Part shown: piece after piece, positions 6,001-21,022 of the stretch
How positions within the stretch are numbered: position 1 is the stretch's first letter
How the letters are laid out: every line of letters begins with the position of its first letter
Virus record (IMG/VR): IMGVR_UViG_3300021090_000121
Location: 1 to 21,022 of that record
DNA: 21,022 nucleotides
From: a virus
Direction: 5' to 3' (one strand)
Notes under the pieces: model-generated
What the model saw: only the letters and a program-made list of their open reading frames with translations
Told to the model about the DNA's origin: nothing
The model's database searches: none
Translations under genes and position numbers: made by a program

Positions 6001-8933
6001 CGCGGCTCAAGTCGGTCCTCGACACGCTCACGACGGAGAACGACGCGGCGCAGCAGTCGGCGATTCTCACGTCGCAGATCCAGCAGCAGGCGATCATCAG
6101 GGCCTCGAAGACGTGGGAGGGATTCGGCGACGCCGCGGCAGGGGCCTTCGCCTTCGCCGGGGCGAAGGCGCGGGAGTACGTCGCGTCGCAGGACACGGTA
6201 TGGCAGGGCTTCGCGAAGATGCTCGTGACGACCTTCGACGGCATCCAGCGGACGCTCTCCGACGTCTTCTTCGACTACTTCACGACGGGGACGTTCGACC
6301 TCCAGAAGGCGTGGACGAGCATGCTCAACTCGATGCTCCGGGCGCTCTCGGACTTCCTGGCGCAGCAGGCGGTCAAGACGTTCCTCTCCTTCCTCTTCGG
6401 GGCGCCGGAGGGGAGCACGGGCCTCGCGGCGATGGCGGGGACCGGTGGGGCAAGCCTCGTAGGCGGGGCGGGGTCCTCCGGGCTCCTCGGGGGAGTCCTC
6501 GGCTCGGTGGGGAAGGCGCTCGGGCTCGTCGCCCCGACGCCAGCACCCACTACGGCATCGGGATCTTCCGGTAGTAGTGGAGGTGGTATTTCTCTTGGCG
6601 GTCCGTCCGGGAACTTCCTAAGTTATCTCAGTCAGCCCTCGACGCCCACCTTCTCGATGGACTTGACGCCCTCCATCGACTGGGGGTCCCTAGGAGATTT
6701 CGGGCTCTCAGAGATCGCAGCCACAGACTGGGGAGGTGGGTGGGCCTCTGGTGGCCGCATCCCAGGCTCCGGACGCGGGGATATCGTACCCGCGATGCTC
6801 GAGCCCGGCGAGTTCGTCGTCCGCCGCTCGGTCGCCGAGGCGATGGGACCAACCCTCGACGCCCTGAACGCCTTCGGCAGGCCGACGGCATCGGGCGGGC
6901 GGCTCCTCATGGCGACCGGAGGGCAGGTGGACCTGACGGGGCTCGCCGGGACCTCAATCGAGGACCTCCGGGGGCTCGGGGCGCTCCAGTCCATAGGGTT
7001 CCTCCTCCAGCAGCAGATCGCGATTCAGCAGGAGGTCGCCGAGAACACCGGGGCGACGGCGGGCGCGCTCGGGGCGGCGGTCGCCCCCGAGATGACGGCA
7101 GGGTTCACGTCGATCACGGGGAGCGGCGGGGCGGCGCGCCCGGTGACGGTCGGCGGCGCGGGGCAGGACGGCGGCGGGATAGGCGCGAGCGAGATCCTCG
7201 GCATGCTCGGCGGCGGGGTCGGCCTCGCCCGGTCCGGGTCGAACCTCTTCGCGGGCCTGACGGGGACGACCGGGATGGGGGGCGTCAACGCCCTCCTCTC
7301 GGCCCTCACGGGCGGGATCGGGCTCGCCTCCGGCCTCTCGAGCGGGAACGTCCTCCAGGCCACGGGCGGGGGCCTCTCGCTCCTGAGCGCCGCGGCGCGG
7401 TTCTCGAGCGTCCAGTCCCTCCTCAACGAGACGTTCGGCTCCTCCCTGATCGGCTCCGGCTCGACGGCGCTCGGGGCGGGCGGCCTGACGAGCTCGGCCC
7501 TCGGGATCGCCGGTGGGGGCCTCGGGCTCTACGCGAGCATCTCGAGCATCATAGAGAACGGGGTCTCGACGGGGAACGTCGCAGGCGCTCTCCTGAACGC
7601 CTATCAGATCTACTCGGCGGCGGCCCCGATCGTCTCGGCGCTGACCGGGACGGCGCTCCCGACGTTCACGTCCCTCGTGGGAACCGCCTTGACTTCCTCG
7701 GGGATAGCCTTTTCGTCGAGTGCCGCCCTTGGAGCAGGCGTCACGGCGACCGGCGGCGCCGTCGGGGTCGGGACGGCCGCCGGGACGATGGGGGCGGGCC
7801 TGACGGCGGGGATAATGATGGCCCCACTCGCAGTCGGTATGATTATCAACTCGATACTGGATATGCAGGATGCGGTGCAGGTGCAGAGGCAGATCTCGCA
7901 GGCGCAGCAGGACCTCCGGACGGTCATCCCGCAGATCATCGAGCAGATCCCAGCGGTCGCGGACTCGTCGTGGGCGATCATCAACGACCCGGCGTCGACG
8001 CCGCAGCAGGTCCGGGCGGCGTATGACAGATCGCACGAAGCCTTCGACCTCTACCGGACCTACTGGAACTACTTCGCCACCGGGTCCGGGGCGTGGGGGA
8101 ACGTCGAGGTCCCGCAGCTCCTCGAGATCCAGAAGCAGCTCCAGCCATACTCGGCGAAGCTCCAGGGGGGGATGCTTCGTGCGGCCGACCGGCTCGCCTC
8201 GACACCATTCGCGGTCTCGGCGAGCGACCCGTTCCTCAATCCCGTGCCTCTGGCAGCGAACCTCTTCGGAGTTCCGGTCCTCAGCGCGGGGGCGGGAGAT
8301 ATAAACATGCAGACGACCCGCCCCGAGGACTACGGGGTGACGGGTTCCCCGTGGGGCCCGGTTCCGAAGGACATCTACGAGCAGATCCTCGCGAACGTCA
8401 AGCCGGGGCAGCTCGAGCAGAGCCTCGCGGCCCTCGCGAACCTCTACGGGAGCGGGGTGCCGGACATGTATAAGACGCTCGGGTTCGGAACCGTCGGGAC
8501 CGCGCTGGACCTCCCGAAGCTCCCGCTCGACGCCCTGAACTTCCTAATAAGCTCTCCGAGGTACACGGCGCAGGAGCGCCTCTGGATGGATACGGCTCAC
8601 ATAGACCCCAGTCCAGGGGGAATGGCAAGCGGGGGCTGGGTCACAGGAGGCATCCCGGGCCTTGACTCCGTCCCGATCCTCGCGATGCCCGGCGAGCCTA
8701 TCATTCCGGCGGGACCGGCGAAGCGGTACGCCCCGCTCATCAACAAGATGATCGGCGGCGAGGACCTCTCGTCGATCGGGCCGCAGACGGTCCACTACAA
8801 CGTCTCGATTACCGTCAACGGGCACGACGGCGACCCGCAGGAGCTGGCGCGGGTCCTCGCCCCGAGGCTCCGCGACGAGCTGAAGCGGATCGACCCGCGG
8901 TACAGTAGGGCGGGGAGCAAGAGTCAGGTATGA
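3006..8933 (+). CDS. Tail tape measure protein
   Basis: 1975 residues from GTG 3006, one base after the previous stop. It sets tail length and occupies the tube lumen until DNA ejection. Visible regions: a TP901-type minor tail core at about 80-330 (FADQEQAFSGILKTVEATDE; GMTTGEVFALATAFTSVGVQ); a strongly hydrophobic, membrane-like stretch at about 408-480; charged coiled-coil-rich sequence at about 600-1030; a lambda gpH-like C-terminal segment at about 1038-1135 (GFGDAAAGAFAFAGAKAREY); a Gly/Ser linker near 1180-1200; the common tape measure motif DIVPAMLEPGEFVVRRS near 1258-1275; a long Gly/Ala-rich region; and a second, diverged copy (DSVPILAMPGEPIIPAG) near 1885-1905. No peptidase or lysozyme domain was recognised. 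Base composition falls sharply at about 5340-5770. The end overlaps the next start (ATGA). Confidence 0.92.
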   Translation: MDLTGYLRLVDVNFMAQLNKAKAATADFGNQVKQSAAHIATGFAGGSDKVADATSKLMQFRNTLAGASVAVGILATGFTALGIAMVKSFADQEQAFSGILKTVEATDEQFEQLRDNLTTLSNRIPVKFEDLAKIGELAGQLGVQGVSNLTKFIETIARVTESTNLSTEAAAIGFARIASIMQEPIANVDRMAAVVVHLGNKFEATESEIVNFATRIAATGKIAGMTTGEVFALATAFTSVGVQAEAGGTAINKMITEMATAVSTNSDKLLVFAKLAEETPGGFQKLFRTEPAEAFKKVLEGLGREGEGAFGMLEAITGLEARFVRAMLSEAQAGGMLSRALVLQNQAWKDNLAHIIESEKKFGTLTAHFRILQNNIENFAASLGATLAPALRLFSQIGTAIVQGFQGLPELVKTFIALTIAAVALTLAFTALLTTIAFIAIAIKAIGISLTVLAIGFGVTTGALVILGGAVLLAVKYFGLFSETSNQLEERLRGQKGAIAENASSWKGWWQAFKDTMNGAGVAMSKLYDAITIFFPDVLLGMLSWAEEFVPGWDKIWKALKTVVSFELDLIKTKFEFLWQALLSTPGLGQFIAMIQLFHSLGAANRVETEKTASATKDWIAAMEVANAEFPKQRAQLGSSVLSMEEYERAIRKIELAMQRQSDAVKINATVLKVQRETEKEILKTEEIVFRERERAASDELDEKLKTIGATRSGLEQELGLTRDGTKALSEKIALMSRGAGKLREDGQKELVQNQQLFKDRSKKIDEITKKIEDANTDRILAEQGYSFEVTKIWRDREELKLKDLFASAKVNEENDRLAIESARMLFDVKEDQSDRLKELYESDTETFIRETKKKGNYAAAQLEESLKAVGTSEEEILRRVSKELSLIDVKILEFLRKGLRESRAEVSGLREAMGLEQWTLDYQKLTLAQAKFSTSYKDLLPWQRDYIDILAESRAEQEKNKLLTEQQTVANNALMVGLGRLVGVEDARYAQDIKRREARLKSVLDTLTTENDAAQQSAILTSQIQQQAIIRASKTWEGFGDAAAGAFAFAGAKAREYVASQDTVWQGFAKMLVTTFDGIQRTLSDVFFDYFTTGTFDLQKAWTSMLNSMLRALSDFLAQQAVKTFLSFLFGAPEGSTGLAAMAGTGGASLVGGAGSSGLLGGVLGSVGKALGLVAPTPAPTTASGSSGSSGGGISLGGPSGNFLSYLSQPSTPTFSMDLTPSIDWGSLGDFGLSEIAATDWGGGWASGGRIPGSGRGDIVPAMLEPGEFVVRRSVAEAMGPTLDALNAFGRPTASGGRLLMATGGQVDLTGLAGTSIEDLRGLGALQSIGFLLQQQIAIQQEVAENTGATAGALGAAVAPEMTAGFTSITGSGGAARPVTVGGAGQDGGGIGASEILGMLGGGVGLARSGSNLFAGLTGTTGMGGVNALLSALTGGIGLASGLSSGNVLQATGGGLSLLSAAARFSSVQSLLNETFGSSLIGSGSTALGAGGLTSSALGIAGGGLGLYASISSIIENGVSTGNVAGALLNAYQIYSAAAPIVSALTGTALPTFTSLVGTALTSSGIAFSSSAALGAGVTATGGAVGVGTAAGTMGAGLTAGIMMAPLAVGMIINSILDMQDAVQVQRQISQAQQDLRTVIPQIIEQIPAVADSSWAIINDPASTPQQVRAAYDRSHEAFDLYRTYWNYFATGSGAWGNVEVPQLLEIQKQLQPYSAKLQGGMLRAADRLASTPFAVSASDPFLNPVPLAANLFGVPVLSAGAGDINMQTTRPEDYGVTGSPWGPVPKDIYEQILANVKPGQLEQSLAALANLYGSGVPDMYKTLGFGTVGTALDLPKLPLDALNFLISSPRYTAQERLWMDTAHIDPSPGGMASGGWVTGGIPGLDSVPILAMPGEPIIPAGPAKRYAPLINKMIGGEDLSSIGPQTVHYNVSITVNGHDGDPQELARVLAPRLRDELKRIDPRYSRAGSKSQV
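5340..5770 (+). other. AT-rich patch inside the tape measure gene
   Basis: Codon choice changes from GC-ending to A/T-ending (AAA, GAA, GAT, CTA, AGT) over the coiled-coil region, then returns to the phage's usual style near 5780-5830. The reading frame is unbroken, so this looks like a recombined segment and not damage. Confidence 0.5.
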
Positions 8934-10927: not shown

Positions 10928-11415
10928 TGGCTCAGGACCTCCTAGACCGATTTACGCCGCTCCACAATCAGCCGGTCGATCACTCCAACGTCGCGACGCT
11001 CGTCCTCCGGTTCGGGCACCGGCAGGTAAAGTTCCCGGAGAGCAAGTCGCGCGCCGCGTACTTCGCGAGCGTCATGTCGTCCCTCTTCAACGCGTCCGGG
11101 CTCCTCGTCACGCTCGTCTGGTCGATGCCGACCGCCGCCGCAGGGGTCAAGTGGGAGATCGTCTTCGAGCGGCACGACGGCGGCGTCTTCAACTTCGCGT
11201 CGAGCGGGTTCGGGACGATCGTCACCGCGACGGCACCCGCCCCGGCGGGCGCGAACCTCCCGCTCTATACGCAGATCGCGTGCGCGAACGGCCCGCAGAC
11301 GGACGGCATCCTCGGCCTCGAGAGCTACCGCCTCAGCGTCCGGCGGCGGGGGGATCAGGACGGAGTGGGGCAGGCCGCGTACCTCCACAGCGTCATCGTG
11401 CAGAACCTCACCTGA
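10927..11415 (+). CDS. Virion structural protein, beta-sandwich-like (tail tip)
   Basis: 162 residues from ATG 10927, with GAGGA 6 nt upstream. The first 60 residues are mixed (MAQDLLDRFTPLHNQPVDHS). The rest is strand-rich: LLVTLVWSMPTAAAGVKWEI, an FxFASSGFGTIVTATAPAPA stretch, then SYRLSVRRRGDQDGVGQAAY and a final VIVQNL strand. This profile is typical of small jelly-roll or sandwich proteins in phage tips and heads. Its stop overlaps the hub start (ATGA), so it is probably translated with the hub and may associate with it. No specific family name can be supported. Confidence 0.6.
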   Translation: MAQDLLDRFTPLHNQPVDHSNVATLVLRFGHRQVKFPESKSRAAYFASVMSSLFNASGLLVTLVWSMPTAAAGVKWEIVFERHDGGVFNFASSGFGTIVTATAPAPAGANLPLYTQIACANGPQTDGILGLESYRLSVRRRGDQDGVGQAAYLHSVIVQNLT

Positions 11416-14400
11416 TGGCCATCTACTTCCCCGGCCGCGTCGGGATGAAGTACGTCGCCCTCACGCCGCAGTTCCGGTACGACTACGGCCTCGCCGGGGG
11501 GCAGGTCGGGGCGGCGATCTGGATCAACCCGGACGACGTCTCATTCAACCAGGAGATCCTAGCGGCGAGCAACTACAACCCGAACTACCTGAACAGCTCC
11601 GTCGTCCAGTTCGTCGTCCGGCTCGAGGCCGGGGGAGTCCTCATCGTCATCCATGCCATGAACGTCTTCGGCTTCTGCACCGTTCGGCGCTCGCTCCCCG
11701 GCGCGGTCGTCGCGGGGCAGTGGCAGCAGATCACCGTCGTCTGCCTCGCGAGCAACGACATGCGCGTCTTCATCGACGGCGTCGAGATGTCGTACGCCTT
11801 CTCCCGGTCCGAGGTCGGCCTCCCGCTCTCGGGCGGCGGGGACGTGCTCTTCGGGACGTACTACCGCGACTCCGGCTGGCCCCGCGGTCCAGACCCCGCG
11901 CCGCACACCATGTACTCGGCGTACATCAGGACCATCACAGGAGACCAGACGAACGCGGACCTCGCGAAGCGGTTCACGACGGAGGTGGGGACGTGGTTTC
12001 AGGGCGGGCTCGCGTGCGGCGGGTTCTGGCACGCCGGGCTCGTCCAGGCGGACGCCGACGAGCTGGCGGAGAGCCTCGCGGGGGGGACGTCGCCGCTCTT
12101 CTACCCGCACTTCTTCAGGAACTCGACGTTTAGCCACGGGCTACTCATGGCCCCGCCGCTCGTCGGGGAAGACGCGATGATGGACTACGACCCGATCGCG
12201 CCCGAGTCGCCGGAGTCTCCCGGAGACAGCCCAGCGTTCGACATCATCAGTCCATTCGCGCAGAAGACGGTCCCCGTCGTCGGGGACCCGGGCGTCCTCT
12301 CGTGGATGGAGGGGCCCGGGATCATCGAGCCCTGCGAGCCCTACATCGACGGCCCGGGCCCCGCGGTCCCGACGGTTCCGAAGCTCTGCCTCCCCTTCGG
12401 CCTCCCGCGCGCTGAGATCTACGAGAATCCCGGGAACCCGGCGGACCTCCTCCCGATCGTCTACGGGAGCTTCCGGCGCGGGGGCCTCGCTGCGGGGCCG
12501 GGGCCCATTCCGGCGACGCTCATAGACCGGGGGGAGGACGATCTCGGCCCCTGGGTCTACTGCGCCGCCTTTCACCCGGTCCTCTCCATCGACGTCGTCT
12601 ACGTCGATAACGTGGCCGTCGTCCCGAGCACCGACTACGGGTGGAACCTCTCAGATAACTTTCAGAACCGCGGGACGATCGCGACGATCACCTTCCCGAC
12701 GCAGCCGCTCGGGAGGGTCACGTGGCGGGGGCTCGGGATCTACGACCGGACGGGTACGACGCTCATGGAGAACTGCCTCGATCAGGTCGTCCACCTCCTC
12801 ACGACGTGGGGGAACTTTACCCTCGCCGAGGACTTCGACCTCACGGCCCTCGCCGAGGCGACGTCGGCGGTCACGCGGCTCGGGTATAAGACAGCCTTCG
12901 TTGTCTTCTCGGAGGCCGTCACCCAGGACTGGCTCACGGAGATGCTCTTCAACGTCATGGGGTACTGGCGCGTCAACGGGCGGGAGCAGATGGAGTTCCA
13001 CGTCGACGACGGCTACTCGACGCTGGCCGCGTCCGACCTCGCCGCCGAGGTCCTCGCCGCCCGCGACTGCCTCGACGGCGACGACGGGGTGAGCTTCACG
13101 CTCGACCGGCAGAACCTCGTCAACGACCTCACCGCCCTCTACATCTACTCCTACACCGTCAACGAGGCGACCTCGCTCCTCTCGGGGCTTACCGACCGGG
13201 CGTCGATCGACGCCTATGGGGAGATGAAGAAGTCCGTCGTCCTCAGGGGGCTCCGGCGCATCGACAACGTCAGGACGTGGGCCGCGATCCTCCTCATGCG
13301 CCAGTCCGCCCGGCGGCGCGTCGAGGGCGGCCTCCTCGCGTTCACGCTCCTCGGGGGGCGCTTCGCGCACCTGACGATCGGCGACCTGATCACCCTCTCC
13401 TGGCCCTACGGCCCCCGCCTCGGCGAGGGGGTGCCCTACGAGGGCGAGGTCCTCCGCGTCGCGAACCTCACGATCGACCCGAGCCGCGGTGGGGCGATGG
13501 CGATTCTGGCCGTCGACCTCGGGATGCGCATGATCGGCGGCGCGGCGGCGATCCCGGACCTCCCCGCGCTCCCCTCGGACCCATCGCCCGAGGAGACGCC
13601 GGAGCCGACGTTTCCGAACATCTCCCCGATCGGCTCGCCGCCGCCGGGCCCGGCACCCTCGCCGCCCCCCTCGCCGCCGCCCCCCTCGCCCCCCGGGCCG
13701 ACGGCGCCCCCGGCGCCGCTCATCACGGGGTTCCCGGGGAACCCGACGGCCCGGACGAGCGCGACGTTCACCTTCACGGACGGCGAGGCCGGGGTCAGCT
13801 ACGTCGCGCAGCTCGACGGCGGGGGGTTCGTCCCCGTCACGAGTCCGGTAACGTACGACGGCCTGAGCGTCGGGAGCCACAGCTTCGGCGTCAAGGCGCA
13901 GAACGCCTCGGGGCTGCTGAGTCCGGCGACGACGTTCGCGTGGACGATCGACACGCTCGTCCACGACGCCCCGACGCGATTCGCGTGGAGCACGGTTCCC
14001 CCGTATCAGTTCAAGACGACGGAGGTCGCGATGGGGGTGCGCCTCCGGGCCCTAGACGCCGCCGACGCCGTCGCGACGGACTACACCGGGAGCGCCGTCC
14101 TCACGCTCGCGCTCGACGGGCCGGGAGACCCGGCGGAGTACTCGGTGGTGAAGGTCTACGTCTCGAATCCACTGAGCTCCTCCATGACGCTCTTCGGCAC
14201 GAACACGACGCCCCCCTTCGTCAACGGAATCTGCTCCGGGATCTTCCTCGTCCTCGCGGGCCCGGACGACGTCCAGGCGCACCTCGTCGCGACGGACGGG
14301 GCCGTAGTCGGATCGAGCAACACGTTCGGCATCAGTCAGATCGCGCCGCCGCCCCCTCCCACCCCAGGTCCCGGGGTTGACCCCTCGCCGGAGGGGGCGC

Positions 14401-14699
14401 CGCCCTACGATCTCGTGCTCAGTACGACGAACGAGGCGCTCGACTCGGGGACGTTCATCTGCTACCTCCCGGGCACGACCATCAGCATTCACCTCTTCAT
14501 CGCCGCGCAGAGCGGGACCACGCGGCACGACATCGGGAGGCACATTCAGATCAACGGCGGTCAGGACGGCGACGCCATCATCGTGGCCGCCCCCGCCGGC
14601 AACAACATAGTCACGGTCACCGTGATCGTCCCGTTTACAGCCGTGACGAGCCCGACCTTCACCCACCGCTACCCGGCGGGGACGTGGACGGTAGTCTGA
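11415..14699 (+). CDS. Tail hub with lectin-like, Pro-rich and Ig-like modules
   Basis: 1094 residues. ATG 11415 overlaps the previous stop and marks the start; the same frame is open upstream to 10920 only as antisense-phase sequence over the preceding gene. Residues about 1-185 look like a LamG/ConA-type jelly roll (VGAAIWINPDDVSFNQEILA; AGQWQQITVVCLASNDMRVF; IDGVE). Residues about 320-710 form a tail hub region (LPIVYGSFRRGGL; FVVFSEAVTQDWLTEMLFNV; MGYWRVNGREQMEFHVDDGY). A proline-rich linker lies at about 713-768, an Ig-like domain at 769-853 (ending FAWTID), a second sandwich to about 976, another Pro-rich linker, and a C-terminal domain. The hub closes the tube, and the lectin and Ig-like modules may contact the host surface. 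The start of the hub region recurs in the gene at 19529. Confidence 0.75.
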   Translation: MAIYFPGRVGMKYVALTPQFRYDYGLAGGQVGAAIWINPDDVSFNQEILAASNYNPNYLNSSVVQFVVRLEAGGVLIVIHAMNVFGFCTVRRSLPGAVVAGQWQQITVVCLASNDMRVFIDGVEMSYAFSRSEVGLPLSGGGDVLFGTYYRDSGWPRGPDPAPHTMYSAYIRTITGDQTNADLAKRFTTEVGTWFQGGLACGGFWHAGLVQADADELAESLAGGTSPLFYPHFFRNSTFSHGLLMAPPLVGEDAMMDYDPIAPESPESPGDSPAFDIISPFAQKTVPVVGDPGVLSWMEGPGIIEPCEPYIDGPGPAVPTVPKLCLPFGLPRAEIYENPGNPADLLPIVYGSFRRGGLAAGPGPIPATLIDRGEDDLGPWVYCAAFHPVLSIDVVYVDNVAVVPSTDYGWNLSDNFQNRGTIATITFPTQPLGRVTWRGLGIYDRTGTTLMENCLDQVVHLLTTWGNFTLAEDFDLTALAEATSAVTRLGYKTAFVVFSEAVTQDWLTEMLFNVMGYWRVNGREQMEFHVDDGYSTLAASDLAAEVLAARDCLDGDDGVSFTLDRQNLVNDLTALYIYSYTVNEATSLLSGLTDRASIDAYGEMKKSVVLRGLRRIDNVRTWAAILLMRQSARRRVEGGLLAFTLLGGRFAHLTIGDLITLSWPYGPRLGEGVPYEGEVLRVANLTIDPSRGGAMAILAVDLGMRMIGGAAAIPDLPALPSDPSPEETPEPTFPNISPIGSPPPGPAPSPPPSPPPPSPPGPTAPPAPLITGFPGNPTARTSATFTFTDGEAGVSYVAQLDGGGFVPVTSPVTYDGLSVGSHSFGVKAQNASGLLSPATTFAWTIDTLVHDAPTRFAWSTVPPYQFKTTEVAMGVRLRALDAADAVATDYTGSAVLTLALDGPGDPAEYSVVKVYVSNPLSSSMTLFGTNTTPPFVNGICSGIFLVLAGPDDVQAHLVATDGAVVGSSNTFGISQIAPPPPPTPGPGVDPSPEGAPPYDLVLSTTNEALDSGTFICYLPGTTISIHLFIAAQSGTTRHDIGRHIQINGGQDGDAIIVAAPAGNNIVTVTVIVPFTAVTSPTFTHRYPAGTWTVV

Positions 14700-14764: not shown

Positions 14765-14775
14765 GCAATGCACTA
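14748..14775 (+). other. Orphaned RBS and start codon, likely displaced gene start
   Basis: AAGGAGGG (14748-14755) is followed after 5 nt by TTG 14761 and codons reading M-S-N-A-L. The frame then runs antisense into the HNH gene whose stop codon complement lies at 14773-14775. The intact virion gene at 15512 starts M-A-N-S-L-F with a weaker RBS. The simplest reading is that this is the old start of that gene, cut off by the HNH insertion. Confidence 0.4.
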
Positions 14776-15459
14776 TCGTCCTCGGTAGCACTCGAGAGAA
14801 CAGAACCGTCCAGCTCCTCTCTTTGGATAGATAAGGAACTCTTGACGACAGTGCTCGCAGAGTCTTTTTACAGCCCGCAGCTTCCGACTCCCGGCTATTA
14901 TAAAGAGTTCTCCGTCTCTAATCAGAGTAGGATGATGCCGTCGAGTATTACATCTATGACACGATGCTACGAGGTTCTTCGGTTGATTATCTCTACCATG
15001 ATTATTCAGGTGATCGACTTCAAGCAAGCCGTATTCCCATGTCAATTTCTTTCTACACCAATAACACGGATGGGTTCCGGGGCCTATCTTGTCGAAGAGG
15101 ACCAGACGGTGCTCCAGAAGACGGCCAGTAGAATCCGCTAGCGGATGCCCGAAACAGTAGATCATGAGATAACGTCCGGGCTTCTTAGCTCTTGGTCTAG
15201 GTGGATTATATTGCCATTGCCACTTGATATGACACGATATAGAGCAGAATTTTCCGGTCCCTCGCTTCAACCTACTCGGGGAGGCGTGCCAGACAAACGT
15301 CTTCTTGCAGTATCGGCAGCGACGAGCGAGTCTCTTTCCGCCTCGAGGCTGCTTCGTACTGCACTTCAACGAACAGTACTTCGCCTCTCCACTTCTTACT
15401 CTATTCGCTTTGGCCATGAATAGCTTCTTACACTCTAGGCAGGTCCTTTGTAGTAGCAT
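14773..15459 (-). CDS. HNH endonuclease with zinc knuckles (homing type)
   Basis: 228 residues on the minus strand, the only convincing gene there. Zinc-knuckle pairs occur at C7/C10 with C29/C33, C48/C51 with C72/C76, and C201/C204 with C220/C224, each shaped CxxC-KK-x-F ... (F/Y)CSxxC. The HNH core lies at about 130-176: C132/C135, the DH pair 149-150 (LEVDHLNNHG), N162 (PKNLVASCHRC) and C167/C170. These HNH enzymes cut DNA next to their own gene's insertion site and spread by homing. Base composition is clearly lower in GC than the flanking tail genes, which fits recent transfer. It lies opposite to the operon, between a strong RBS and the virion gene at 15512. Catalytic residues look intact; the target site is unknown. 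Confidence 0.85.
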   Translation of the reverse strand: MLLQRTCLECKKLFMAKANRVRSGEAKYCSLKCSTKQPRGGKRLARRCRYCKKTFVWHASPSRLKRGTGKFCSISCHIKWQWQYNPPRPRAKKPGRYLMIYCFGHPLADSTGRLLEHRLVLFDKIGPGTHPCYWCRKKLTWEYGLLEVDHLNNHGRDNQPKNLVASCHRCNTRRHHPTLIRDGELFIIAGSRKLRAVKRLCEHCRQEFLIYPKRGAGRFCSLECYRGR

Positions 15460-17336: not shown

Positions 17337-17801
17337 ATGCCGAGGAGCCTCCTCACGGATAAGGTGGCGTACAAGATCGCCAAGCACGTCGAGGCGGGGA
17401 ACCGCTTCTACATCGCCTGCGCGATGGAGCACATCGCGGAGGACACCGGACGGAACTGGCTCTCCGAGGGCCGGAAGTGGCCGAACACCCCCCAGGGGAG
17501 GTTCGCGAAGGCCGTGGAGCGGGCGGGGGCGAAGGCGGAGCTCAGGGCGCAGTCCAGGATACAGAGGGGGATCAAGCAGAGCTGGGTCGCCGCCGCGTGG
17601 TGGCTCACGCACGGCCCGTCGAAGCTCGGCTGGGCGGCGAAGGAGCCCGGCGGCGCGTCGGCGAGGGTCAACATCAACATCGGGGATCAGATACGAGGGA
17701 AGATCTCCGGGATGTCGGGGCACGTCCTCGAGGCAGAGTACACGCGGCTCGACCAGAACGTGAGGATGCTCGGAGACGGCGGAGGCCCCCCTGTCGACTG
17801 A
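17337..17801 (+). CDS. Terminase small subunit candidate (TerS)
   Basis: 154 residues from ATG 17337. The first 90 residues follow the pattern of TerS-like DNA-binding proteins: an N-terminal helix (LTDKVAYKIAKHVEAGNRFY), a helix-turn-helix-like segment (IACAMEHIAEDTGRNWLSEG), then 'GRFAKAVERAGAKAELR...I' and 'WVAAAWWLTHGPSKLGWA', which recalls the usual 'W-x-A-A-x-W-x-L-E-R-x-x-P-x-x-W-G' block. The C-terminal part (SARVNINIGDQIRGKISGMS) is probably for oligomerisation or TerL binding. It overlaps the terminase large subunit reading frame by 11 nt, the normal TerS-TerL arrangement. TerS selects the viral DNA packaging site and delivers it to TerL. Confidence 0.75.
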   Translation: MPRSLLTDKVAYKIAKHVEAGNRFYIACAMEHIAEDTGRNWLSEGRKWPNTPQGRFAKAVERAGAKAELRAQSRIQRGIKQSWVAAAWWLTHGPSKLGWAAKEPGGASARVNINIGDQIRGKISGMSGHVLEAEYTRLDQNVRMLGDGGGPPVD

Positions 17802-18567
17802 GACAGCCGACCGGAAGGTCCTGGAGGAGCGGTACGTCAGGCACGTCGAGAGCCTCGTCGGCCTGGCGCGCTCCGGGAGCCTCGACGCCTTCGGGGCGCT
17901 CGTCATCAAGGACCAGGACGGGACGCCGATCGAGCTGGCGCCGATTCACAAGTCCTGGTCCTCGTTCGTCCCCTGGTGCTGGAAGAACGGTCTCTACGCG
18001 GGCATCCTCGCCCCGTGGCGGCACGGGAAGACGACGCTCTGCACGATCCGCCTCGCCCTCTGGGAGATCGGCCGGAACCCCGACGTCCGCGTCCGGATCA
18101 TCTGCGCCGACGACGACGAGGCCATCCTCCGCGTCGCGGCGGTCCGGCGCTACCTGGAGTCGCCGGAGTACAGGTGGATCTTCCCGCACGTCGAGCCCGG
18201 GCGCCAGGGGGACTGGTCGAAGCACCGCCTCTTCGTCAACCGCTCCTCGCCGGGCCCGGACCCGACGCTCGAGGCGGCGGGGATATTCACGGGTGAGGCC
18301 GGGGGCGGGAACGACCTCATCCTCCTCGACGACATCGTCACGTACCAGAACGCGATCCTCCGGCCGTCGCTCAGGAACCAGGTCTTCGACGTCCTGAGCG
18401 CCGTCTGGCTCCGACGGGTCGAGCCTGACACGCGGATCGCGTCGGTGGGGACGACGTGGCACGTGGACGACGCCTATCAGAGGCTCCGGAAGCAGGCTGG
18501 GAGGTGGCGCTGGCTCATCCAGGGGATCGCGGACGACTTCGAGCGGATCGACTGTCACGTCGAATAG
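17791..18567 (+). CDS. Terminase large subunit, ATPase half only, CTG start
   Basis: 258 residues if read from CTG 17791 (M-STETADRKVLEERYV). In this frame no ATG, GTG or TTG occurs between the stop at 17761 and a GTG at 18436, well past both Walker motifs. GGAGG (17781-17785) sits 5 nt before the CTG. Visible motifs: an adenine-binding-like N-terminus (ELAPIHKSWSSFVPW), Walker A APWRHGKTT near 72-80, RVRIICADDDEAILRVAAVR, Walker B DLILLDD near 175-181, and the coupling motif GTTWHVDDAY near 218-227. The protein ends at IADDFERIDCHVE, where related TerLs pass into the RNase H-like nuclease. Full-length TerLs usually have about 400-600 residues. As it stands it could hydrolyse ATP but not cut DNA, unless a separate nuclease part exists elsewhere. 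Confidence 0.8.
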   Translation: MSTETADRKVLEERYVRHVESLVGLARSGSLDAFGALVIKDQDGTPIELAPIHKSWSSFVPWCWKNGLYAGILAPWRHGKTTLCTIRLALWEIGRNPDVRVRIICADDDEAILRVAAVRRYLESPEYRWIFPHVEPGRQGDWSKHRLFVNRSSPGPDPTLEAAGIFTGEAGGGNDLILLDDIVTYQNAILRPSLRNQVFDVLSAVWLRRVEPDTRIASVGTTWHVDDAYQRLRKQAGRWRWLIQGIADDFERIDCHVE

Positions 18568-18581
18568 CAGAGGAGGGAATG

Positions 18582-18839
18582 ATGGAGCTGGAGCTCAAGG
18601 TGGGGATGGGGATAGGGTGGGAGCACCCTCAGATGCAAGAGGGGGAGGTACTCATCGGTACCGTCGCCGCGATCGACCTGGTCGCGCGGACCGTGGACCT
18701 GGAGTTCCCGGACGGGAGCGCGCGGGGGAAGATCCCCTGGGAGCAGCTCGGGCGCCAGCGCCGCTCGGAGTTCTCCCCTGCCATCGACGTCATCGGGCCT
18801 CGTGGAATAGACTCCGAGGAGAGGATGGGGAGGTTCTGA
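18582..18839 (+). CDS. Small unknown protein, beta-rich
   Basis: 85 residues from ATG 18582; GGAGG (18572-18576) is 5 nt upstream, better than for the adjacent ATG at 18579. The core EGEVLIGTVAAIDLVARTVD followed by LEFPDGSARGKIPWEQLG looks like a small OB- or SH3-like barrel. It shows no nuclease residues and is not the missing half of TerL. The stop overlaps the next start (TGATG), so it is coupled to the virion protein gene downstream. Confidence 0.55.
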   Translation: MELELKVGMGIGWEHPQMQEGEVLIGTVAAIDLVARTVDLEFPDGSARGKIPWEQLGRQRRSEFSPAIDVIGPRGIDSEERMGRF

Positions 18840-19522
18840 TGGATACTTCTATACTATTGGAGAGAGATATAATCTCCTGCCTCACGTGCGGACTATCGCA
18901 CGCCCTCCCGGAGGAGGTGCGGCAGAACATCGCATCGGCGCAGGGATTCTCCGAGCGCCATCAGGGGCATCAGCTTACCCTCGGCCGCCTCGCCTCACCG
19001 GGACTCTATGCACAGTACGGGATGCCGTGGAACAGCGACGTGAAGCTGGCACTACAGGCCCTGCAGACGATGACGGTGACGAACCTCCACTCCCTCGCGA
19101 ACTCGGCGACCGGGGGGTGGCAGTCCGACGTCGTCGACAACACGTCGAACCTCTTCCTCGACGCATGGCTTCAGGTCGTCCTAGACTTCGCGAACACCGC
19201 CCCGGCAAACTCGAAGGCTGCGATCATCCTCGGGTACAGCGGGATCGAGTCGGGGAAGTACAGCAACCCGGCGAGTGGGTCTGAAGGCACTATCACTCTC
19301 GTGAACATAGACACCAGCGCGCAGAACCTCAAGCTCATAGATCTCATGCCCTACACGACTACGGATGAGGTAGTCGAGTCCTCGGCAATGAGTGTCACCC
19401 CTACATTCGGCGGAATACTTCCGCCGTACTGGGGTATCGTAATCATGAACCGCTCCGGGGCCGCCCTCGCCTCTAGCGGGAACACCGTCAAGTACCGCGG
19501 CATCTACGCGACCGTTATCTAG
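18839..19522 (+). CDS. Conserved virion structural protein (tail-associated)
   Basis: 227 residues; ATG 18839 overlaps the preceding stop and has GGGGAGG (18827-18833) 5 nt upstream. After a less conserved N-terminus (MDTSILLERDIISCLTCGLS) comes a sandwich-like domain whose landmarks recur in many phage and prophage proteins near tail-tip genes: SLANSATGGWQSDVVDNTSN, LFLDAWLQVVLDFANTAPAN, AAIILGYSGIESGKY, EGTITL, and a C-terminal GILPPYWGIVIMNRSGAALA with VKYRGIYATVI. The family role is unsettled; carbohydrate-binding or tip-decoration is likely. The first 40 nt are AT-rich compared with the rest, suggesting a junction at the gene start. Confidence 0.65.
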   Translation: MDTSILLERDIISCLTCGLSHALPEEVRQNIASAQGFSERHQGHQLTLGRLASPGLYAQYGMPWNSDVKLALQALQTMTVTNLHSLANSATGGWQSDVVDNTSNLFLDAWLQVVLDFANTAPANSKAAIILGYSGIESGKYSNPASGSEGTITLVNIDTSAQNLKLIDLMPYTTTDEVVESSAMSVTPTFGGILPPYWGIVIMNRSGAALASSGNTVKYRGIYATVI

Positions 19523-19528
19523 GGTGTA

Positions 19529-21022
19529 ATGTTTGGCCCTCGCTCTGGTCGTTGGGTCCAGAAGCCCCCGGTAGGAGTCCGCGCTAACCGGAGCCTCCCG
19601 TACGGTGTCCTCGGGGTCTGGACTATGAACGAGGCGCTCGAGATCCACAACCTCGTGCGCAGCGCATTCACACAGGGGTCTGGCAGCAGGACGGGCGGCT
19701 TCGGCAGTAATGGGACGTACCTCGCGCACACATCGACGCTCGACCGCGCGAACCTCTTCGAGGCGGGGGACGCGGTGGCGTGGGTCCCGACGCAGGAAAT
19801 TACGATCTGCCTCGGCTACGAGAAGCGCGACGCAACGCTCAGGGGCGCTGGGGCGTTTGGAGTGGGTAACAATACTAATGCAGAGCGCTGCCAGGCGCTC
19901 ATCCCATTTACTGATGGAACAGTATACTGGGACTTCGGGGGGGTCACCGAGGACGCGACGCGCGAGAGTGTTGCCGGACTAACAACAAGTGGCTATCACT
20001 CCTGGGGATTTACGTCCGGGCCTCGTGGTATGGAGATCTGGCAGGATGGACTCATTCGGTCGTCGAACTCCGCGAACCCGACGCGATCGAGCAGTGCGGT
20101 GGCGTACCAGCTAGGGCACGCGGTCTCTGTAAATAGCGACCTGGCAAACTACTACTGGGTCTTTATGCACCGGACCCAGCTGCCGTTTGAACTCCTCCGG
20201 CGAGTCCTCCTCGATCCATATAATACGATCCTCGCCCCACCGGTCCCGCGACGCAGAGTCTTTCCGTGGAAATCGTCTGTCCCTACTATAATTTCCCCGA
20301 GTGGCATCGCGTCCGTAGAGGCGTTCGGGAGCCACCGGGTCGGCGATATGACGGTCCCGTCCATCACCTCCGCCGAGGTGTTCGGGACCGCCACGCTAAT
20401 AGCCGGGGACATCGCCCCGGCGGGGATAGAGTCCGAGGAGTTGGTAAGCGACGGTGAGATTATTGATACCCCCGGGGCGGCGGGAACGATCACGCTGACC
20501 ACTGGGATCGCGTCCGGCGAGGGGTTCGGGACGGCGGAGCTGACGGACGTCGCAACCATCTACCCGACGGGCATCCCGTCGAGCTTTGCAGTGGACCTAC
20601 ACTCAGTGGGGGTAGCCGTGGGCACGATCGCACCGTTCGGGATTCGCTCCGAGGAGCACTTCGCCGACGTCAGCCGCACGGTCCTCGGCGTCCCGATCAG
20701 CGGGACGACGGTCTACGAGCTCCGGAACCCGCCGCCCCCGGCGGCCGGGACGGTCACGACGAAGCGGCTCTGCTCCCCCCTCGAGCTGATCCGCGCCGAG
20801 CGGTACGCGGGGAGCCCGAACCCGGCGTTCATCCTCCCAGACGTCTACGGCGACTTCCGGGTCGGCGGGCTCCGGGGGCCGATCCCGGCGGTCCTCGTCA
20901 CGCAGTCCTCGCCGTGGGTCTTCATCGCCGCCGCGCACCCGGTGAAGGAGATCACGAACGTCTACGTCGACGACGTCGAGGCGACGAGCGGCTTCGTGAC
21001 GATCCCGGCCATCGCTCTCGGG
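19529..21022 (+). CDS. Second lectin-like / tail hub protein, runs off the window
   Basis: At least 498 codons from ATG 19529, open to the last base, so the C-terminus is missing. Residues about 20-245 resemble a LamG/ConA-type jelly roll (GYHSWGFTSGPRGMEIWQDG) ending in the typical phage motif RTQLPFELLRRVLLDPYNTI then PPVPRRRVF. Residues about 255-400 carry degenerate repeats of the form P-x-G-I-x-S-x-E-x-F-G (GIASVEAFG, ITSAEVFG, GIASGEGFG, GIRSEEHF). From about 408 the sequence matches the start of the hub region of the 11415 gene: RLCSPLELIRAERY, NPAFILPDVYGDFRVGGLRG, PIPAVL, PWVFIAAAHPV, VYVDDV. It is therefore a paralogous hub with different front modules. No good SD is seen (AGGGTG very close to the ATG). 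Confidence 0.8.
   Translation, partial: MFGPRSGRWVQKPPVGVRANRSLPYGVLGVWTMNEALEIHNLVRSAFTQGSGSRTGGFGSNGTYLAHTSTLDRANLFEAGDAVAWVPTQEITICLGYEKRDATLRGAGAFGVGNNTNAERCQALIPFTDGTVYWDFGGVTEDATRESVAGLTTSGYHSWGFTSGPRGMEIWQDGLIRSSNSANPTRSSSAVAYQLGHAVSVNSDLANYYWVFMHRTQLPFELLRRVLLDPYNTILAPPVPRRRVFPWKSSVPTIISPSGIASVEAFGSHRVGDMTVPSITSAEVFGTATLIAGDIAPAGIESEELVSDGEIIDTPGAAGTITLTTGIASGEGFGTAELTDVATIYPTGIPSSFAVDLHSVGVAVGTIAPFGIRSEEHFADVSRTVLGVPISGTTVYELRNPPPPAAGTVTTKRLCSPLELIRAERYAGSPNPAFILPDVYGDFRVGGLRGPIPAVLVTQSSPWVFIAAAHPVKEITNVYVDDVEATSGFVTIPAIALG
20296..20730 (+). repeat. Degenerate GI-x-S-x-E-x-FG protein repeats
   Basis: Inside the 19529 gene, about six imperfect units of 20-30 residues follow the pattern P-x-G-I-x-S-x-E-x-F-G-x-x-x-V/L: GIASVEAFGSHRV, ITSAEVFGTATL, GIESEELVSDGEI, GIASGEGFGTAEL, GIPSSFAVDLHSV and GIRSEEHFADVSR. 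Such beta repeats are common in phage fibres. The DNA copies have diverged, so this is an old expansion. Confidence 0.7.

Follow-up and report, generated by a model that had tools for sequence, protein, structure and literature searches.

Does this phage carry two tail hubs, and if so, what could the second one be for? The DNA analysed, hereafter the window, is the complete IMG/VR record IMGVR_UViG_3300021090_000121 of an uncultured phage (21,022 nt), so that nothing is available past position 21022. The initial annotation had noted that the products of the genes at 11415 and 19529 share a colinear block, with the second copy starting at about 20757, and had named it a tail hub domain present in duplicate. 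These coordinates all hold, and the block residues that it listed are mostly correct. The two genes, here called hub 1 and hub 2, are located about 5 kb apart and have the following parts.

11415..14699, plus strand: hub 1 gene, 1094 aa; colinear homologues in two relatives (L004 and G004, see below), 48-49% identical
11415..12290, plus strand: lectin-like front of hub 1 (Laminin_G_3 / concanavalin-type), ~40% identical in three phages
12354..13538, plus strand: hub 1 core, aa 314-708; matched in structure by baseplate chains of GTA and JBD30
12354..12614, plus strand: shared block, copy 1, hub 1 aa 314-400
13539..14696, plus strand: C-terminal extension of hub 1, window only, 386 aa; a proline-rich linker, then beta-domain-like sequence
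14773-15459, minus strand: HNH-type endonuclease gene, with a 63% identical counterpart at the corresponding place in L004
15981-16775, plus strand: HNH-type endonuclease gene
18839..19522, plus strand: small protein before hub 2, part of its front cassette; relative at L003:9357-9902
19529..21022, plus strand: hub 2 gene, truncated at the end of the record, with 498 aa visible
19529..20284, plus strand: front of hub 2, lectin-like through relatives only, common to two other phages (L002 and L003)
20285..20665, plus strand: GIxSxExFG-type repeats, also repeats in the DNA; phrog_13352 minor tail protein, E 3.9e-9
20738..20977, plus strand: shared block, copy 2, hub 2 aa 404-483; the core then runs off at 21022

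Two genes with a common block

In a BLASTP alignment, residues 314-400 of hub 1 and 404-483 of hub 2 are 49.4% identical over 87 columns (E 3.7e-17), in agreement with the earlier count by eye of about half of the positions, and their Smith-Waterman score is 191, against a maximum of 83 among 500 shuffles. At the DNA level only 55 bp at 76% identity are clearly visible, so that the copies must be old. The front modules had been described as not clearly alike, and indeed their best local score of 39 lies within the range of shuffled sequences (mean 37, maximum 70). The description of both fronts as lectin-like stands for hub 1, where PF13385 is matched at E 7e-6 in the window, just under the cut-off, and at E 3e-7 and 1.6e-7 in the relatives, over the cut-off; galectin-like structures also match residues 1-127 of the hub 1 model. 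For hub 2 it holds only through relatives, the front in the window having no Pfam match of its own.

Hub 1 has the usual position of a hub gene: it follows the tape measure gene (assigned by PHROG) and three small tail genes, in the window as in L004 and G004, and a probable Dit-like gene is among those before it. Its lectin-like front is inherited vertically in these phages. The C-terminal extension of 386 aa is missing from the aligned hub 1 proteins of L004 and G004. A perfect 21-bp inverted repeat, longer than the maximum of 19 found in 40 simulated sequences, has one arm near the 3' end of the tape measure gene (8484-8504) and the other at the start of the hub 1 block (12362-12382), and is absent from the relatives. 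Both HNH-type endonuclease genes lie in a stretch of lower GC content behind hub 1.

Small and large terminase genes are located between both hubs in the window (17337-18567), and neither phrog_38 nor the window terminase finds a match on the 30 kb contig G004. The frame of the large subunit (17764-18567) holds the ATPase half only (phrog_38, E 2.8e-30) and has no in-frame ATG, GTG or TTG start; no adjacent nuclease part was found. As a relative in another contig (G005, L017) ends at the same place, the ATPase-only form looks genuine.

The hub pair in related phages

Two other contigs share the tail module of the window.

L004/L008: IMGVR_UViG_3300025917_000068, 17.5 kb; colinear with the window from the 378 gene to the phrog_644 gene
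G004: IMGVR_UViG_3300045391_006248, 30 kb; same tail gene order, extends further, both hubs present
L016:4505-6595: hub 1 of G004, 696 aa
L016:10584-12230: hub 2 of G004, the orthologue of hub 2 in the window, complete; 548 aa with the whole core

The hub 1 of L004 is 48% identical to that of the window, and the contig ends before the place of hub 2. G004, the only relative in which both hub genes occur together, repeats the order of the window, that is tail genes, hub 1, the phrog_644 gene and hub 2, with both hubs open, and a profile of the block finds two matches in it, each in an open frame. Hub 1 and hub 2 of G004 are 49% identical over 403 aa (E 1e-123), so that the homology reaches beyond the block and covers the full hub core of ~400 aa; within the window it is visible over the block only, owing to the record end. 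The visible part of hub 2 in the window (repeats and block) is 55-58% identical to hub 2 of G004 over about 231-245 aa, and the core of hub 1 in the window is 44% identical to the same protein over 433 aa. Judged by these alignments, the homology of the cores and the completeness of hub 2 in G004 are established, and the claim of a duplicated hub domain can be extended to two complete genes which, with homology over the whole domain, are a paralogous pair that arose by duplication. Hub 2 of G004 runs through the whole core instead of ending after the block. Of the two refuting conditions set by the initial annotation, a stop after the block and a misassembly, neither holds in view of this independent contig. 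Duplication is confined to the hub: the remaining tail-tip genes each match once in G004.

In trees of the core, and likewise of the block alone, both hub 2 proteins group together with 100% ultrafast bootstrap among five sequences (two hub 2 and three hub 1 proteins). The duplication therefore predates the split of these phages, and its age may be counted among the firm results. No recent gene conversion between hub 1 and hub 2 is seen in the trees, which indicate a long divergence. Nevertheless, 133 of the 190 core columns that are invariant in the three hub 1 proteins are also kept in hub 2 of G004 (70%). The hub 2 orthologues differ by 0.30, 0.26 and 0.48 at the first, second and third codon positions, respectively, the third being highest; with five sequences this is modest evidence, and the pattern would fit selection on the protein.

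The front of hub 2 shows a different history. Over about 250 aa it is 30% identical to a gene of L003 and 32% to one of L002 (E 1e-22 to 4e-27), and the product of 18839..19522 is 33% identical over 161 aa (E 5e-17) to that of L003:9357-9902, which likewise precedes a lectin-like gene. Neither L002 nor L003 has a hub core at the place of the matching front cassette. The lectin-like part of G004 forms an open reading frame of its own, the gene upstream of it matches L002 instead (46%), and the hub 2 fronts of G004 and the window are not conserved. As the cassette has matches in unrelated phages without the hub, and as the fronts are unlike, the core of hub 2 has been inherited and its front exchanged, an exchange as firmly indicated as the age of the duplication. 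The lectin-like frame of G004 (L016:9723-10584) stops at a TAA that is immediately followed, in frame, by the GTG start of hub 2; a split gene, coupled translation and a base error cannot be told apart at this junction.

The hub group is rare in the collections searched. Eight scans of viral sequences gave two contigs other than the window with the hub family, which makes three contigs in all in IMG/VR with the patterns used. A tblastn search with both hubs against 50,697 phage records returned no relative, only matches in the repeat region, and two scans of bacterial genome contigs for the hub family returned none.

Identity of the duplicated core

The name tail hub was a guess of the initial annotation, which gene order and structure comparison now support; the duplicated core is probably a true siphophage tail hub. 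The AlphaFold models of the hubs come from shallow alignments and have a mean pLDDT of 34, so I used the rank of the matches and ignored the geometry. With the model of hub 2 from G004 (pLDDT 34), Foldseek places only two of 350,542 PDB chains under E 0.001, 8vjh_A of the Chi tail tip and 8rk3_b of the JBD30 baseplate. In VIA-align, rows 1-9 for the same model at the same pLDDT are all tail-tip or baseplate chains, from DT57C, T5, lambda, JBD30, Chi and GTA (Z 5.0-5.4), and the JBD30 row pairs residues 210-532 of the model with residues 13-386 of the chain. The best row of the hub 1 model is the GTA particle (aa 363-447, rmsd 3.2), followed by galectin folds, and its residues 637-704 match 8rk3_b of JBD30. 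Structure matches at pLDDT 34 and Z 5-6 are below the level that would convince alone.

Plain Foldseek with the hub 1 model finds no PDB chain under E 0.001, and in the viral Foldseek library only an uncharacterised protein was matched. Searches of the core against Pfam, NCBIfam, PHROG and PDB sequences gave no match of weight (profile matches to the PDB were chance), and PF13550 does not match the core. Against a 17-member alignment of JBD30 hubs, hhalign scores 32.1-32.2 (Prob 8%) with a shuffle maximum of 31.9, although one shuffle against the profile referenced to hub 2 reached 34.4, above the real value. The hub and the JBD30 family align colinearly along 218 columns, while shuffled sequences reach 106 at most. 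Single-sequence hhalign was rejected as noise for the identity of the hub, as JBD30 gp48 outscored the hub.

A possible role for the second hub, and known systems

The reading that I prefer, an evenly balanced judgement, is that of a retained second hub whose core docks an exchangeable adhesion cassette and which is built into the tail tip together with the first. The lineage would keep two paralogous hub proteins with the same core, a trimeric cup like gpJ, pb3 or gp53 of JBD30 that closes the tail beneath the Dit ring. Hub 1 would be the standing hub with its fixed lectin-like front, and hub 2 an ancient duplicate whose core anchors an exchangeable lectin-plus-repeat cassette to the tail tip, where it may contact receptors. 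With both genes on the same strand amid other structural genes, the proteins are probably produced together and assembled into one virion, either in mixed trimers or with a second ring. That the tail tip combines both full paralogous hubs, mixed within one trimer or stacked as two cups, is a tentative and rather doubtful proposal; if true, a single virion would show a fixed and an exchangeable set of lectins through the same hub scaffold.

It is unlikely, yet deserves attention, that the core of hub 2 is used elsewhere, for example at the base of a side fibre or in a separate virion appendage. The gene does lie outside the tail-tip block, behind the terminase genes in the window, and its cassette is of an appendage type with minor-tail repeats. 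However, the full-length core retains 70% of the columns invariant in hub 1, and the repeats match a tail family, both of which speak against such a use.

Alternatively, the trimer of any one virion may consist of hub 1 alone or of hub 2 alone, so that two types of particle with different host contacts would arise, the option that the initial annotation named first. Both cores are complete and have many conserved residues in common, so either could fill the hub site, and only one Dit-like gene and one partner gene are present. Nonetheless this is improbable, as the long divergence without gene conversion suggests different rather than interchangeable jobs, and no switch gene was noticed among the genes scanned: no invertase or reverse transcriptase stood out among those covered by family scans. 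With both hubs on one strand amid structural genes and no switch noticed in those scans, co-production is likelier than a switch, and mixed or stacked assembly is therefore slightly favoured over alternative tips. Lastly, an artefact of assembly from two phages or a dead remnant is highly improbable: hub 2 is cut by the record end in the window, terminase genes separate the hubs in the window only and a stop codon lies between the lectin-like frame and hub 2 in G004, but the independent 30 kb contig of G004 repeats the gene order with both hubs open.

The preferred reading, in which hub 2 attaches an exchangeable cassette to the tail tip, can be compared with several known systems. In lambda and T5 there is one hub per phage; the VIA-align rows of gpJ and pb3 cover the core, with no sequence match to PF13550 here. 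Where tail-tip structures of siphophages were compared, there is one gpJ-type hub trimer, and a limited literature search found no report of a duplicated siphophage hub. Salmonella phage 35 and Redjac, which have extra matches to the JBD30 hub, were considered as two-hub precedents and rejected: one match is a split hub gene, and the others repeat only parts of the C-terminal half (aa 416-624) and do not amount to a second core.

The closest matches of the hub 2 model in Foldseek are the tail-tip hubs of JBD30 (gp53) and Chi (8rk3, 8vjh), with JBD30 colinear over residues 13-386. The JBD30 hub gene is likewise placed behind the tape measure and Dit genes (PMC11445458). JBD30 has a single hub with tip domains V-VII behind the core, and no match to the present hubs at the sequence level, whereas this phage has a lectin-like front before the core, two hubs and no tip domains, the sole exception being the extension of hub 1 in the window. 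The actinophage minor tail proteins of phrog_13352 have GIxSxExFG repeats as in hub 2, without a common hub core being detected, and the lectin-like cassettes of L002 and L003 have the same front, in L003 with the same small upstream protein, and no hub core.

In RcGTA, the particle to which the best row of the hub 1 model belongs, two different proteins, g13 and the megatron g15, jointly occupy a threefold baseplate below a single Dit ring (PMC7296036), and gp50 and gp53 likewise share a baseplate in JBD30 (PMC11445458), so there is a precedent for two proteins sharing a baseplate site. However, g13 and g15 are different proteins with different hub domains, unlike two copies of one full core, for which the literature read gave no precedent. 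While a tail hub is of a known kind, a retained second full hub with a swapped front would be new. Such a hub, if true, could widen the receptor range and leave the standing hub untouched, and a phage with two hubs would be a natural test of whether hub trimers mix or stack.
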